IMG/VR virus record: IMGVR_UViG_3300005663_000169
Coordinates: 1-28,515 of that record
From: a virus
Length of the DNA: 28,515 nt
Reading direction: 5' to 3' (one strand)
The notes under the pieces are model-generated. The model searched no databases and was not told where the DNA came from. It saw nothing but the letters and a program-made list of their open reading frames with translations. Within the stretch, counting starts at the first letter, position 1. Every line of letters starts with the position of its first letter. The position numbers and the translations under genes were made by a program. Shown here piece after piece: positions 11,452 through 15,382 of this stretch.

Positions 11452-11570
11452 TAGTTCACCTCACTATATTTTATTTAGCAAGGCGGCATAACTCACAGCC
11501 TATCGCCACTTGCTTTATCGAGTGGCCCGTCCTTTAGTTTCTTATTCTATTGTTAAAGTTCAAATCTATA
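11452..11570 (-). promoter_or_regulatory. Structured 5' leader of the leftward operon
   Basis: About 120 nt of transcribed, non-coding leader. A hairpin GCCACT/AGTGGC (11505-11526) with a 10-nt loop is followed by GGCG...CGCC pairing within 11482-11507. The two hairpins share the GGC at 11505-11507 and so are partly exclusive. I do not recognise a known riboswitch. The leader may be only stabilising. Confidence 0.35.
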
Positions 11571-11575
11571 CTGAT

Positions 11576-11604
11576 AGTGTAGCACCTATTACATAACTTG
11601 TCAA
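11576..11604 (-). promoter_or_regulatory. Leftward early promoter
   Basis: Minus strand: TTGACA, 17-nt spacer, TACACT, TGC before the -10. It matches the 6741-6769 promoter in the block GGTGCTA around the -10, and is placed to drive the whole leftward block. Confidence 0.75.
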
Positions 11605-11621
11605 GTCCTGGTTCGTATCTG

Positions 11622-11684
11622 GCATTGCGTTTAGGGTGGTTTTTATTTCGTGCCTGATTGTTAAAAATACTACACCCCCAATGC
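11622..11684. promoter_or_regulatory. Dyad between the divergent promoters (possible operator)
   Basis: GCATTG at 11622-11627 and CAATGC at 11679-11684 are inverted copies, each followed or preceded by a GGGTG/CACCCC block. They lie between the two -35 elements, a usual place for a repressor to act on both promoters. No protein is identified; the XRE-type and HTH proteins of this window are candidates. Confidence 0.35.
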
Positions 11685-11691
11685 AAGGGAT

Positions 11692-11720
11692 TTGACATTG
11701 GTTTAATCGTTTGTTATAAT
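11692..11720 (+). promoter_or_regulatory. Rightward promoter, full consensus
   Basis: TTGACA, 17-nt spacer, TATAAT: a perfect consensus match, with TGT before the -10. Transcription is expected to begin near 11727, only a few bases before a terminator-like hairpin. Confidence 0.85.
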
Positions 11721-11731
11721 GTAAGTAATAA

Positions 11732-11780
11732 ACCCGCCAGGCCTCTGCCGCAAGGTATGCTCAACTATGGCGGGTCTTTT
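11732..11780 (+). terminator. Promoter-proximal terminator-like hairpin (attenuator or short RNA)
   Basis: ACCCGCCA (11732-11739) pairs perfectly with TGGCGGGT (11768-11775), followed by CTTTT. The 28-nt loop could form a weaker inner stem (CCT/AGG). It begins about 5 nt after the expected transcription start. It could end a 50-nt RNA or work as an attenuator or anti-termination site for the rightward block. Confidence 0.6.
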
Positions 11781-11851
11781 AATAGGGTAAAGCACAGGTG
11801 AGCGTGATGCCTGATAATAGACGGTGATAGATGATGACGGTGGTATAGAAC

Positions 11852-11881
11852 TTGACAAATCTATTATGTTAGTGCTAGAAT
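11852..11881 (+). promoter_or_regulatory. Second rightward promoter (leaderless type)
   Basis: TTGACA, 18-nt spacer, TAGAAT, TGC before the -10. The -10 ends 8 nt before ATG at 11890, and there is no Shine-Dalgarno sequence, so the mRNA is predicted to start at or 1-2 nt before the start codon. Confidence 0.65.
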
Positions 11882-11889
11882 AAGCTATT

Positions 11890-12066
11890 ATGATAGATGA
11901 TACAGAACTTAAGGATGAGCGGTTAAAGCAACGAGACAGCAGCGGAAAGTTCCTAACTGGTAATACTTTAGGTTGGCAGCCAGGTCAGTCGGGCAATGCC
12001 AAAGGAGCAACCCCCAATTCTGTGACCACACTCTTAAGGAACAAAACACAAGAAGATAACCGATAA
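11890..12066 (+). CDS. Short DUF5681-like protein (58 aa)
   Basis: Begins MIDDTELKDERLKQRDSSGK, and the centre GWQPGQSGNAKGATPNSVTT is the DUF5681 signature (W-x-P-G-Q-S-G-N-x-x-G-x-P-x-N-S). The family is common beside phage terminase genes and has been linked to small-terminase-like roles. This copy ends about 20 residues after the motif, whereas the copy at 15035 has a full helical C-terminus. So it is either a truncated paralogue or a minimal DNA-binding form. It is preceded by its own promoter with no leader. Confidence 0.65.
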   Translation: MIDDTELKDERLKQRDSSGKFLTGNTLGWQPGQSGNAKGATPNSVTTLLRNKTQEDNR

Positions 12067-12113
12067 AGCTAAATGAACTTACTTAAATATCTAATAAGGG
12101 GGAGTGGTAGGTG

Positions 12114-12411
12114 CTGCGGTGTAGGTGCATATGCGGGGTAATAGGTGAAATAGCTGAAGCCCTGTAGGAGTTGGAGCGTAACCAGCCAGCTTAAATAACT
12201 TGCGAGTGGCGGAAGTATAAGACGTAAGAAGTGTCTCAACTTGTGGCAAGGAGCATTCCAACGAGTGCCTTCGGGTATAACCCTTGTCGTCTAGGGGTGG
12301 AAGTCCTTTAGCTCGCAGTTCTTGTGTTAGAAAGTAGACAATTGGGCTAGAATCATACGATTAAATTTATAATCATACAGAATACACAAAAAGTTGATGA
12401 TTAGCTCGCAG
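12114..12411 (+). ncRNA. tRNA-like, non-coding element (nested copies)
   Basis: No convincing frame exists over these 300 nt. From 12200, TTGCGAG pairs with CTCGCAG at 12312-12318 as a 7-bp acceptor-like stem. Next come TG and GCGGAAGTATAAGACGT, like a leucine-type D-arm but lacking the GG pair. TGCC-TTCG-GGTA follows as a cUUCGg hairpin in the place of a long variable arm, and AGGGG-TGGAAGT-CCTTT as a 5-bp stem with a 7-nt T-loop-sized loop. The 3' motif TAGCTCGCAGT recurs at 12402-12412, and a possible extra 5' half (CTGCGGT) begins at 12114, so a second, outer element may surround the first. The anticodon arm is poor. It may be a decayed tRNA, a tRNA mimic or an unrelated structured RNA. 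The remainder of 12067-12434 holds nothing else I recognise. Confidence 0.45.
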
Positions 12412-12434
12412 TAAATAAACTTAAGGAGGTTAAG

Positions 12435-12590
12435 GTGCCAGCAAACATAATTAAGATTAATGGTGGTAGTGAGTTCTATGTGGGGGATTCCAAGATGCAA
12501 GACTTCCTCAAGTGGTTACGAGATAATGGATTCCCCCAGAACAAGAAGGCGAAGGCGATGTTTAAAGAAATGGGTTGGGGCAAGAAGTAA
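12435..12590 (+). CDS. 51-residue hypothetical protein
   Basis: Starts at GTG with AAGGAGG 5-6 nt upstream. Begins MPANIIKINGGSEFYVGDSK and ends KAMFKEMGWGKK. A short strand pair is followed by two helices (MQDFLKWLRDNGF, NKKAKAMFKEMG). It is basic and may bind nucleic acid. It sits between two tRNA-like elements. No family recognised. Confidence 0.7.
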   Translation: MPANIIKINGGSEFYVGDSKMQDFLKWLRDNGFPQNKKAKAMFKEMGWGKK

Positions 12591-12594
12591 ATGA

Positions 12595-12766
12595 CTGCGG
12601 GTGGCTGAATGGATAAAGCACCGAAAGGGTCTGGTCATATAGTACAAGACGATAAACTTCATCTCTGCCGTGGCTCTAGTGAGATGAATACCAGTCTAGG
12701 GTGACCGTAGCATAGGATAAAATAAAGCCACGAATGGTCTTATGTAGGCAAATCCCTAGCTCGCAG
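12595..12766 (+). ncRNA. tRNA-like element, paralogue of the 12200-12318 element
   Basis: CTGCGGG (12595-12601) pairs with CTCGCAG (12760-12766) as a 7-bp acceptor-like stem with one G-U. GCTGAATGGATAAAGC is a canonical D-arm including the GG pair. At the 3' end, TAGGCAAATCCCTA looks like a T-arm from which GTT is missing. Between them is about 110 nt with an 8-bp hairpin TTCATCTC/GAGATGAA. Its first 40 bases align with the start of the 12200 element, so the two are related by descent. The spacing rules out a normal tRNA. A tRNA interrupted by an unknown insertion, or a tRNA-derived phage RNA, would both fit. Confidence 0.45.
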
Positions 12767-12780
12767 TAATAGGAGATGAT

Positions 12781-13101
12781 ATGAACTTTAAAGCACAGAT
12801 TAACAATATTAAAAACCTGCAAAAGGGAGTGGGGAAGCGCAGGATAATTCAACAGTGGGAGGGAAGTGAATTCCGACATATTACCTATCCATATAATATT
12901 TCCCTATGCGACCATAACTGTAATGCTGGTGAAGGTTGTTGTCATATACTAAGGGAGAGTGGTATTACCTTTTGTGTGGATATACCAGATACCTGCTTGA
13001 AAGAGCACGCATATAAAAATGATTACACCCTTGAACGCCTAGTAGGTGGCAACTGGATAAAGAGACCTAGAAAAGAAGAACCCATAGAATGTTTTTGGTA
13101 A
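12781..13101 (+). CDS. Cys-rich hypothetical protein
   Basis: 106 residues. The middle (SLCDHNCNAGEGCCHILRES) carries five Cys and two His in a cluster; two more Cys follow (TFCVD, DTCLKE). TAGGAG lies 6-7 nt upstream of the ATG, just after the third tRNA-like 3' motif. The C-terminus is basic, ending EEPIECFW. It probably binds zinc. No family recognised. Confidence 0.65.
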   Translation: MNFKAQINNIKNLQKGVGKRRIIQQWEGSEFRHITYPYNISLCDHNCNAGEGCCHILRESGITFCVDIPDTCLKEHAYKNDYTLERLVGGNWIKRPRKEEPIECFW

Positions 13102-13102
13102 A

Positions 13103-13360
13103 ATGGAAACAGTAGATACTGATACGAAAACAGGAACAAACTCTGAAACCATACTCTGCTCAATGGGTAGGTGGAGGGGTGAAGATGTCTGGGTGACGCA
13201 TCAGTCAAACGAATGTCCTATAAAGGGGCATGCATTGGAGATTGTTCACCATTATGACGACAAGGGCAGGCATTACTGTCCCACCATGTATCTGATGTGT
13301 CCTTATTGTGGTGGGATTGCAGATGAATCAGAACCTTATGAGTGTCACCAATGGAACTAA
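13103..13360 (+). CDS. Zinc-binding hypothetical protein
   Basis: 85 residues. The C-terminal part has MCPYCGG with further Cys and His (HYCPTMYLMC, YECHQW), a zinc-ribbon layout. The N-terminus is polar and probably disordered (METVDTDTKTGTNSETI). It begins 1 nt after the preceding stop with only a weak ribosome site, so it is likely translated by coupling. Its end overlaps the next gene by 10 nt. Confidence 0.6.
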   Translation: METVDTDTKTGTNSETILCSMGRWRGEDVWVTHQSNECPIKGHALEIVHHYDDKGRHYCPTMYLMCPYCGGIADESEPYECHQWN

Positions 13361-13518
13361 TTGATACTGGTAGTCTAATAGCATTTGAAAGCCTTAGAAG
13401 GTGGAACTTACTCTTCTCGCTAGAGGGGGCTATTGAGTATCACGGCTGTTCCTTATTTGCCTTGAAGGTAAAAGAGTATATGAGAGTAAGATGGTTGATT
13501 ATGATGAGGGATAATTAA
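13351..13518 (+). CDS. 55-residue hypothetical protein
   Basis: Begins MELIDTGSLIAFESLRRWNL and ends KVKEYMRVRWLIMMRDN. It overlaps the preceding gene's stop and ends 10 nt before the next start, with AAGGAGGAG lying between. It is mostly helical and moderately basic. The overlap pattern supports it as a gene; function unknown. Confidence 0.55.
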   Translation: MELIDTGSLIAFESLRRWNLLFSLEGAIEYHGCSLFALKVKEYMRVRWLIMMRDN

Positions 13519-13528
13519 AGGAGGAGTT

Positions 13529-13801
13529 ATGACAACCAAGGTTAAAACACAATGTTGCTACAAGGACAAATGCATAGATGCGGGGGATTATTACAAGTGC
13601 CCCACCTGCATACACAACGAGAAGAGGAGCTACTATAGGCACTATGACCCACAACCATATTACCCGTGGTATCCTGTATATCCTTGGGACTATCAACCCT
13701 ATATTCCGCATAGCCCTTGGCCGGTAACTTATACTACTACACCAGCAGAGATAATACTCCTTGACGATGGTGTATCACAAAGCTACTATGCGAAGGGATA
13801 A
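13529..13801 (+). CDS. Protein with zinc knuckle and Tyr/Pro/Trp-rich tail
   Basis: 90 residues. CC at 9-10, KC at 14-15 and CPTC at 24-27 form an N-terminal metal site. Residues 35-66 are dominated by Y, P and W (YYRHYDPQPYYPWYPVYPWD and onward), which would be disordered or adhesive. Such aromatic-proline tails occur in proteins that bind surfaces or other proteins. AAGGAGG lies 5 nt upstream of the start. No known family. Confidence 0.65.
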   Translation: MTTKVKTQCCYKDKCIDAGDYYKCPTCIHNEKRSYYRHYDPQPYYPWYPVYPWDYQPYIPHSPWPVTYTTTPAEIILLDDGVSQSYYAKG

Positions 13802-13975
13802 TTGAGAGTAATCACTAAGAGCTGTAAGCGATGTGGTGGAGACCTCTTCACTGATGAGGAAGAAGTGAAATGCCTTCAATGCAGTCACCCTGATGGAGTT
13901 GGGGTCGTAGAGAGGGTAGTATTACCGACAATGACCAGGCGGGAATGGTTTGAGATTTATAGTAGGAGGGGATGA
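13802..13975 (+). CDS. 57-residue zinc-ribbon protein, TTG start
   Basis: Begins at TTG with AAGGGA 4 nt upstream. The sequence includes SCKRCGGDLFTDEEEVKCLQC, a zinc ribbon (CxxCG and CxxC, 16 residues apart), then a helical end (TMTRREWFEIYSRRG). Its TGA overlaps the next start (ATGA), which supports it as a gene. Function unknown. Confidence 0.65.
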   Translation: MRVITKSCKRCGGDLFTDEEEVKCLQCSHPDGVGVVERVVLPTMTRREWFEIYSRRG

Positions 13976-14310
13976 TGAAATTACACCATACTGTTAATCA
14001 TACCCCGATAGAAGAAAGGACTGATTCAATTGAGTTCACTGGGCTAATGCCACAAGTGGCTGATGCATATAAAGACTTGGTTCCAGAGGGAATAAGACAT
14101 TTGCCTGTAGTGTGGTTATCTGAGGGGATATGGCAAAGCCAAGAGCTTCCAGTCTTTGAAGTTGATAGTGGGGACTTGGACAGTGATAAGTTATACCCCA
14201 ATGCTATTGTGTATGAAGTTGATAAAGACCTGCATTGGTGGGTGTATCAAGGGCACATTCCTAGAAGTAGAATAATTAGGCTACGAATTTCTAGCAGTCA
14301 ACCGAGTTAA
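13972..14310 (+). CDS. Hypothetical protein
   Basis: 112 residues, starting MMKLHHTVNHTP; the second Met at 13975 fits the AGGAGGGG ribosome site slightly better. The sequence LPVVWLSEGIWQSQELPVFE and a later VYEVDKDLHWWVYQGHIPRS suggest a compact beta-rich fold with an exposed W-W pair. No catalytic motif seen. It may be an accessory protein of the rightward block. Confidence 0.6.
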   Translation: MMKLHHTVNHTPIEERTDSIEFTGLMPQVADAYKDLVPEGIRHLPVVWLSEGIWQSQELPVFEVDSGDLDSDKLYPNAIVYEVDKDLHWWVYQGHIPRSRIIRLRISSSQPS

Positions 14311-14320
14311 TGGAGAGATA

Positions 14321-14428
14321 ATGAAATACCTAAATGAGTGGAGATACTTCTTATATCCGATATTGGTTCTCTGGGCTCTGATAGGGATGCTCCTTTTAAA
14401 GCTCCTTGAACTGAAGGCTGGGGGATAA
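14321..14428 (+). CDS. 35-residue single-pass membrane peptide
   Basis: MKYLNEWRYFLYPILVLWAL followed by IGMLLLKLLELKAGG: one long hydrophobic helix with a basic start. GGAGAG lies 4-5 nt upstream. It is followed 2 nt later by a second membrane peptide. A holin- or spanin-like role is possible for such a pair but no lysin lies nearby. Confidence 0.55.
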   Translation: MKYLNEWRYFLYPILVLWALIGMLLLKLLELKAGG

Positions 14429-14430
14429 CC

Positions 14431-14523
14431 ATTACTAAATTATTCTGGGCTTTGATTGGGGTTCTTGTCGTTGGATTATTCTCGTTAGGCTGGATTACAT
14501 ACTGGTTAGTGAGGTTTTTATGA
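14431..14523 (+). CDS. 30-residue membrane peptide, apparent ATT start
   Basis: ITKLFWALIGVLVVGLFSLG plus WITYWLVRFL: a near-perfect single transmembrane segment. No ATG, GTG or TTG precedes the hydrophobic part. GGGGGAT lies 4 nt before an ATT codon at 14431. The stop overlaps the next ATG as ATGA, as in the other coupled genes here. This strongly suggests a real gene, with an unusual start. Confidence 0.45.
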   Translation: MTKLFWALIGVLVVGLFSLGWITYWLVRFL

Positions 14524-15034: not shown

Positions 15035-15382
15035 ATGAAACAGGCGAATAACAGCAATCTTAAGGCCGGGGAACCACATAGATGGAAGCCAGGCGAATCA
15101 GGCAATCCCAATGGACGCCCTAAAAACTCAGTTACAGCTATGCTTAAAAATGCATCAGAGGAAGATAGAAAGGCAATAGCTGATAAGGTTATTGAGTTAG
15201 CTAAAGAGGGCAAAATTGAAGCTATAAGAGAGTATATAGATAGAACTGACGGCAAAGTTCCCAGTGAATTAAAGGTAGAAGGGGAGATACTAATCACGCC
15301 TAATATGAGAGCTTTGGCTGCTAAAGAAATGATAGAGATAAAGGAAGAGGAGACTAAATTACTTGTAAACACTACAGAATAG
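15035..15382 (+). CDS. DUF5681-domain protein, small-terminase candidate
   Basis: 115 residues. HRWKPGESGNPNGRPKNSVT at about 20-39 is the DUF5681 signature, followed by two helical segments (EEDRKAIADKVIELAKEGKI and onward). The family is typically placed just before large terminase genes. Here only an HNH-RHH gene and an HNH gene intervene. A small-terminase role, recognising the packaging site, is therefore reasonable but not proven. It lacks an obvious ribosome site other than AAGGG overlapping the start region. Confidence 0.65.
   Translation: MKQANNSNLKAGEPHRWKPGESGNPNGRPKNSVTAMLKNASEEDRKAIADKVIELAKEGKIEAIREYIDRTDGKVPSELKVEGEILITPNMRALAAKEMIEIKEEETKLLVNTTE

Follow-up and report, generated by a model that had tools for sequence, protein, structure and literature searches.

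Transfer RNA mimicry is known from Y RNAs, tmRNA and viral TLS. RNase P and RNase Z recognise the acceptor-T stack and the elbow and not the anticodon, and LeuRS uses A73 but does not need the anticodon. The closest sequence likeness of the RNA family analyzed here is to the type II tRNA-Leu (RF00005), with which it shares the 7-bp acceptor, TG at positions 8–9, the D-arm TGGCGGAATAGGTAGACGC, a CAAAT T-arm and the elbow. In contrast to tRNA-Leu, it has no anticodon arm, a T-stem of 6 instead of 5 bp, TGCAAAT in place of TTCAAAT in the T-loop, about 30–240 nt of variable sequence between D-arm and T-arm (the cargo), no encoded CCA and an unfixed discriminator, and its members fall below the thresholds of Rfam and ARAGORN.

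The bacterial Y RNA-like YrlA (RF02553) also holds a non-decoding copy of the D- and T-arms. YrlA is circularly permuted, with the T-arm preceding the D-arm, whereas the present family keeps the order acceptor-D-P3-T-acceptor, where P3 denotes a 6-bp stem separated from the T-stem by exactly 2 nt. A search of positions 12000–12900 with E-values up to 5 gave no match to RF02553. An unannotated, circularly permuted YrlA-like tRNA mimic was observed in Enterococcus phage EFDG1 (contig L058, 1448–1548) and in L059; this Schiekvirus element lies between tRNA-Ala and tRNA-Pro genes and scores 28 bits, which is below gathering. In tmRNA (RF00023), tRNA-like ends likewise flank a non-tRNA middle, but the present family differs in having no tmRNA match, no tag frame recognised by ARAGORN, a true D-stem and another T-loop. 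Engineered tRNA scaffolds, in which a foreign RNA replaces the anticodon arm of a tRNA body, offer a functional analogy without homology, as the present elements are natural and phage-encoded. What appears to be new is not tRNA mimicry itself but a normal-order, anticodon-less mimic of tRNA-Leu with a replaceable hairpin. The family is apparently undescribed, being absent from Rfam 15 and not found in searches of open-access papers.

The window, meaning the whole stretch of DNA analyzed, is a 28.5-kb IMG/VR virus record carrying terminase, portal and capsid genes. Its positions 12067–12780 hold one 51-aa gene (12435–12590, + strand; partial homologue in contigs L031 and L032) and little besides. 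A sequence-only reading of this region had reported an 11-base motif in three copies, and TAGCTCGCAGT is indeed present, to the base at the ends named, at 12309–12319, 12402–12412 and 12757–12767, exclusively on the + strand. For this 11-mer 0.04 copies are expected by chance in the window, and any 11-mer occurred three times within 700 nt in one of 300 windows simulated with a first-order Markov model. As that reading had proposed, two of the copies close 7-bp acceptor-like stems, each pairing at 7/7 positions, in elements of 119 nt (E1, 12200–12318, + strand) and 172 nt (E2, 12595–12766, + strand) whose 5' halves run on into tRNA D-arm sequence. The poor fit to normal tRNAs also held: neither element contains an anticodon arm with a 7-nt loop, and neither is called by Rfam or by ARAGORN, the latter also when introns and relaxed thresholds were allowed. 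Two assignments changed. The UUCG hairpin placed in the variable arm sits within the replaced anticodon-arm region of E1, and the T-arm-like TAGGCAAATCCCTA is just the 3' end of a T-arm that does exist in E2. The third motif copy (12402–12412, + strand) lies upstream of the Shine-Dalgarno sequence of the 51-aa gene; a tRNA-like 5' half was sought for it and none was found. It is perhaps a remnant, or else E1 could use it as an alternative 3' pairing partner.

Sequence similarity searches of positions 11500–14500 against phages found no relatives. Portal-protein searches led to 53 related contigs, and a stem search around GTGGC-GAA led to L063 and L031. The former reads ACTGGGG-TGGCGGAATAGGTAGACGC-...-CTAGGG(TGCAAAT)CCCTAG-CCCCAGT and the latter has a 9-nt T-loop insertion. 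A descriptor combining a 7-bp acceptor, a 3-bp D-stem, a T-stem of at least 6 bp adjoining the acceptor and the loop TG..(C/G)AA(A/G)T matched E1, E2, L063 and L031 and nothing else on both strands of 795 kb, with 0 matches in reversed controls; its loop pattern was derived from these same elements, so that the result shows how specific the descriptor is without amounting to a discovery made independently of them. When viral contigs were scanned for the T-arm only (CTAGGGTGN{0,30}CAAATCCCTAG), 54 stretches were retrieved, and about 21 distinct ones also have a tRNA-Leu D-arm and a matching acceptor, neither of which was in the pattern. Six matches (L104, L123, L126, L134, L136, and L140) were excluded as another RNA, CTAGGGTGGAGT..ACAAATCCCTAG. 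A second scan, in which only TAGGTAGACGC (part of the D-arm) and GGTGCAAATCC (T-loop) were fixed, returned at least 120 stretches. Two other patterns were rejected: acceptor plus D-arm gave 23 matches in viral contigs resembling chance in GC-rich coding DNA, and both matches to the leader pattern TAGCTCGCAGTAA..AGGAG were due to chance. Another set of viral contigs (L104, L107, L116, L123, L137, L139, and others) carries a conserved RNA, CTAGGGTGGAGTCC..GGACAAATCCCTAG, in which no tRNA D-arm was seen; it lies just upstream of a Shine-Dalgarno sequence and ATG. Among GTDB genomes the T-arm pattern matched once, a result of little weight for prophages since the stem was fixed as CTAGGG. This single contig with the exact T-arm, L158 from a Patescibacteria MAG (JAHIPV010000013.1), has a 5' half that appears different (GCCAAGCAGGTAGTGG) and may represent another type of tRNA-like RNA.

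The core of the family consists of a covarying 7-bp acceptor, the D-arm TGGCGGAATAGGTAGACGC, which is of tRNA-Leu type and nearly constant across members, the variable segment, and a covarying 6-bp T-arm with the loop TGCAAAT. In an alignment of 28 cores (27 relatives and E2, with the middle and T-loop insertions removed), 98.1% of the acceptor and T-stem cells are paired as opposed to 70.7% after shuffling. The covariation score is 0.709 (0.171 shuffled; 0.05–0.12 slid), and in 10 of the 13 pairs both partners vary. The matches listed from the second scan comprise 109 distinct elements, with a T-stem of 6 bp in 98 and an acceptor pairing at 7/7 positions in 87 and at 6/7 in 15; the 94 listed elements with both stems contain 72 distinct acceptor and 28 distinct T-stem sequences. 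Also among the matches listed, 84 have CAT or TAT ahead of the T-stem, about half of the acceptors pair past 7 bp, and an A follows the acceptor in 53 of the 94. Position U55 of the T-loop is always G, and the D- and T-loops keep the tRNA elbow (D-loop GG with T-loop C56), both sides of which are lost in E1 and L090. Neither Rfam nor ARAGORN recognises the family. It is almost certainly a real structured RNA family.

The cargos are almost wholly different between members. P3 is found in 38 of 89 distinct cargos, compared to 4.4 after shuffling (z = 14.7), mostly 8–26 nt after the D-arm. An anticodon arm of the Leu type occurs in none of the 89 (0.2 expected by chance) and one of any type in two, which is the chance level (2.0 expected); the test is stringent, detecting the arm in one of three true tRNA-Leu controls, and could miss imperfect arms. 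With the anticodon arm replaced by a variable hairpin, these RNAs would not decode as normal tRNAs. A common cargo was found in LP65 and 8014-B2 (aligned over the full length) and another in phi3T and Goe3-like phages. Moreover, one cargo can be joined to several acceptors and one acceptor to several cargos, indicating that the parts are exchanged as modules.

All parts of E1 lie on the + strand. Its acceptor strand TTGCGAG (12200–12206) pairs at 7/7 positions with CTCGCAG (12312–12318) and is followed by the D-arm-like TGGCGGAAGTATAAGACGT of tRNA-Leu type (12207–12225), which matches the family D-arm at 12 of 17 positions and has lost the D-loop GG. The P3 strands GGCAAGG (12245–12251) and CCTTGTC (12282–12288) form 7 bp and leave 2 nt to the T-stem, which is the family spacing; at least 7 bp were obtained at that spot in 48 of 2000 shuffles. 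The T-arm CTAGGGG(TGGAAGT)CCTTTAG (12291–12311), with a 7-bp stem, is a variant of the family T-arm. In its 3' part, E1 has 24 of 28 nt in common with contig L090, whose T-arm CTATGGG(TGGAAGT)CCCATAG has an identical loop and differs in the stem in ways that keep the pairing. E1 appears to be a divergent form that also occurs in L090. In both, G replaces C56, and these few sequences suggest a lineage in which the elbow contact was lost on both sides.

E2, likewise on the + strand, contributes a row to the covarying alignment. Its acceptor strands CTGCGGG (12595–12601) and CTCGCAG (12760–12766) pair at 7/7 positions, its D-arm TGGCTGAATGGATAAAGCA (12602–12620) keeps the D-loop GG, and its T-stem is formed by CTAGGG (12696–12701) and CCCTAG (12754–12759). 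The strand CTAGGG is identical in about 20 IMG/VR members, although the pattern used to find them included the T-arm. Between TG and CAAAT of the T-loop lies a 45-nt insertion (12704–12748), at a point also used in L031, L121, L111, L156, and L320; apart from this insertion, E2 appears to fit the family core. A possible but weak P3 is formed by CTGGT (12631–12635) and ACCAG (12690–12694), with 5 bp and 1 nt off the family position, and is not significant alone. The first 27 nt of E2 (12595–12621) match the YrlA-like tRNA mimic of Enterococcus phages at 26 positions. At the 3' acceptor strand of E2, the sequence AATCCCTAGCTCG(C/T)AGTAA(T)AGGAGAT recurs in the relative L004 at 2241. Of an element this contig retains no more than AATCCCTAGCTCGTAGTAA-AGGAGAT, apparently the final part, and the gene upstream of it is similar to the gene preceding the L090 element.

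The sequence-only reading had suggested either tRNA-derived phage RNAs or a new structured RNA family, and both suggestions are supported: there are homologues, and acceptor and T-stem covary strongly. It had named missing covariation or a conserved protein frame as grounds for abandoning the idea; the homologues do covary, and no protein frame runs through the elements, with stops in all but one reading frame of E1 and in every frame of E2. With the covariance model R1, built from 20 other members without window sequences, E1 is the best match in the window, but with only 16.3 bits (E = 0.006). It is closely followed by a match that overlaps the portal gene's end and has to be false (15.1 bits, E = 0.015), and E2 receives 5.8 bits because of its 45-nt insertion. 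The folding free energies of E1 and E2 (z about −1.2 and −1.1) are not clearly better than those of shuffled sequences, and the case is therefore carried by covariation and not by stability. Taken together, E1 and E2 very probably belong to the family.

An alternative view is that E1 and E2 represent tRNA genes in decay, or family members in decay that have no function, and that the repeated 11-mer was left by duplication. The low R1 scores would agree with this, as would the missing D-loop GG of E1, the insertion in E2, the lone 3' end at 12402 and the partial element in L004. A truncated gene also adjoins: the DUF5681 gene at 15035–15382 has a paralogue at positions 11890–12066 that is truncated to 58 aa and is probably a decayed small packaging gene. 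Decay is nevertheless unlikely, since both elements hold perfect 7-bp acceptors and T-stems of 6–7 bp even though their acceptor sequences differ from those of other members. Furthermore, the T-arm of E1 is conserved with compensatory changes in L090, and intact relatives carry insertions at the same T-loop site as E2.

The genomic setting bears on a second alternative. A promoter-like TTGACA-18-TAGAAT (11852–11881, + strand; 11 of 12 matches to the consensus, on which alone the call is based) is the likely start of a transcript holding E1 and E2. No terminator-like site was found before 13000, so that E1, E2 and the small genes are probably in one transcript. A 106-aa gene (12781–13101, + strand) starts 14 nt past E2; relatives of it were sought in viral contigs and none were found. 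E1 and E2 might be tRNA punctuation, i.e., cis-acting cleavage signals separating the small messages of an operon. Indeed, the elements of the window, L063, L090, and L320 are located inside operons between small genes, mostly right ahead of ribosome-binding sites; in L320, a relative by its portal protein, GGATAAAG is also present in the D-loop and a Shine-Dalgarno sequence and ATG follow shortly downstream.

Blast searches with family members located the RNA, mostly unannotated, in cultured phages as well. These comprise the Lactobacillus phages LP65, Sha1, ATCC 8014-B2, phiJL-1, Iacchus, and others, the Bacillus phages phi3T, BUCT082, SPbetaL1, Goe3, and SBSphiJ, and further Hujiaoplasma phage zrk29-2, KLEB27-1, Leuconostoc Ln-9, and SPP1. 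EFDG1 also has four R1 matches. There is usually one copy per record, with several in LP65 and two in the window. In LP65, Iacchus, and 8014-B2 the element lies within tRNA clusters, in phiJL-1 at a genome end, in L031 before a terminator, and in some members upstream of terminase or scaffold genes, as in SPP1, where the 109-nt element (X89721, 3423–3531) is found between gene 9 and the scaffold gene 11. Where IMG/VR records match TerL_ATPase, the element precedes this match by 1.7–5.8 kb in 8 of 10, on the same strand and in front of an HNH gene, although several of these ten phages are related and the records are not independent. Due to these varied locations, mRNA processing is unlikely to be what the family does in general, although it may occur as a side effect. 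Cleavage signals would also need neither the conserved P3 nor the constant TGCAAAT loop, which makes punctuation an improbable explanation.

Other RNAs occur near the element in some of these phages. A second, shorter tRNA-like RNA without an anticodon arm adjoins the Leu-like element in phiJL-1 (L187, 1016–1075; RF00005, 42 bits), in L191 (just upstream of 1123), and in SPP1 (L314, downstream of 705). ROOL RNA lies a few hundred bases upstream of the Leu-like element in Iacchus (L193, 90–645) and 8014-B2 (L186, 1–536).

The tRNA likeness could also be fortuitous, with E1 and E2 representing an unrelated cis-regulatory leader that shares only TAGCTCGYAGTAA ahead of the Shine-Dalgarno sequence. 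The third motif copy and L004, which have the motif without a 5' half, would agree with this, but E1 and E2 are two of just four matches to the acceptor/D/T descriptor in 795 kb, with nothing in the reversed controls, and a chance resemblance is very improbable. That the elements are decoding tRNA-Leu genes with introns in the anticodon and T-loops, as the identity of the D-arm to tRNA-Leu and the insertions at one T-loop site might hint, is scarcely credible given the chance-level frequency of anticodon arms, the Sha1 cargo of only 31 nt with one hairpin, the invariable G at U55 and the lack of any group I or II match in Rfam.

Overall, the best explanation, held with somewhat more confidence than doubt, is that E1 and E2 are divergent phage derivatives of tRNA-Leu without an anticodon arm that are excised as tRNA mimics. 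The element would be transcribed together with its neighbouring genes and cut at the 5' end by host RNase P and at the 3' end by RNase Z or other 3' nucleases. The excised RNA would then persist as a stable, tRNA-shaped molecule whose constant body may occupy or evade a host tRNA-binding factor in trans, with the fast-changing P3 hairpin supplying the specific activity; the polycistronic message would only incidentally be cut between small genes. Such a decoy or scaffold mechanism, in which excision, stability and action in trans are deduced from sequence, is put forward tentatively. Equally tentative is the idea of a widespread class of natural tRNA scaffolds, overlooked in model phages such as SPP1, phi3T, SBSphiJ, and LP65, that display a fast-evolving hairpin and act as decoys for, or antagonists of, a host tRNA-binding factor, e.g., a tRNA-targeting defence. 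With A following the acceptor in only 53 of the 94 listed elements and no encoded CCA, charging is not a conserved feature, and the variable discriminator speaks against charging by LeuRS. The unfixed discriminator and the acceptors pairing past 7 bp also render tRNA-like 3' maturation doubtful.

If the proposed reading is true, these RNAs constitute a large class of noncoding phage RNAs that has escaped notice and extends across siphophages, large myophages and classical laboratory phages. The combination of a conserved elbow, a free acceptor and a hypervariable hairpin points to host tRNA biology and possibly to an arms race. As SPP1, phi3T, SBSphiJ, and LP65 grow on ordinary hosts, the purpose of non-decoding, tRNA-shaped phage RNAs would be directly testable.
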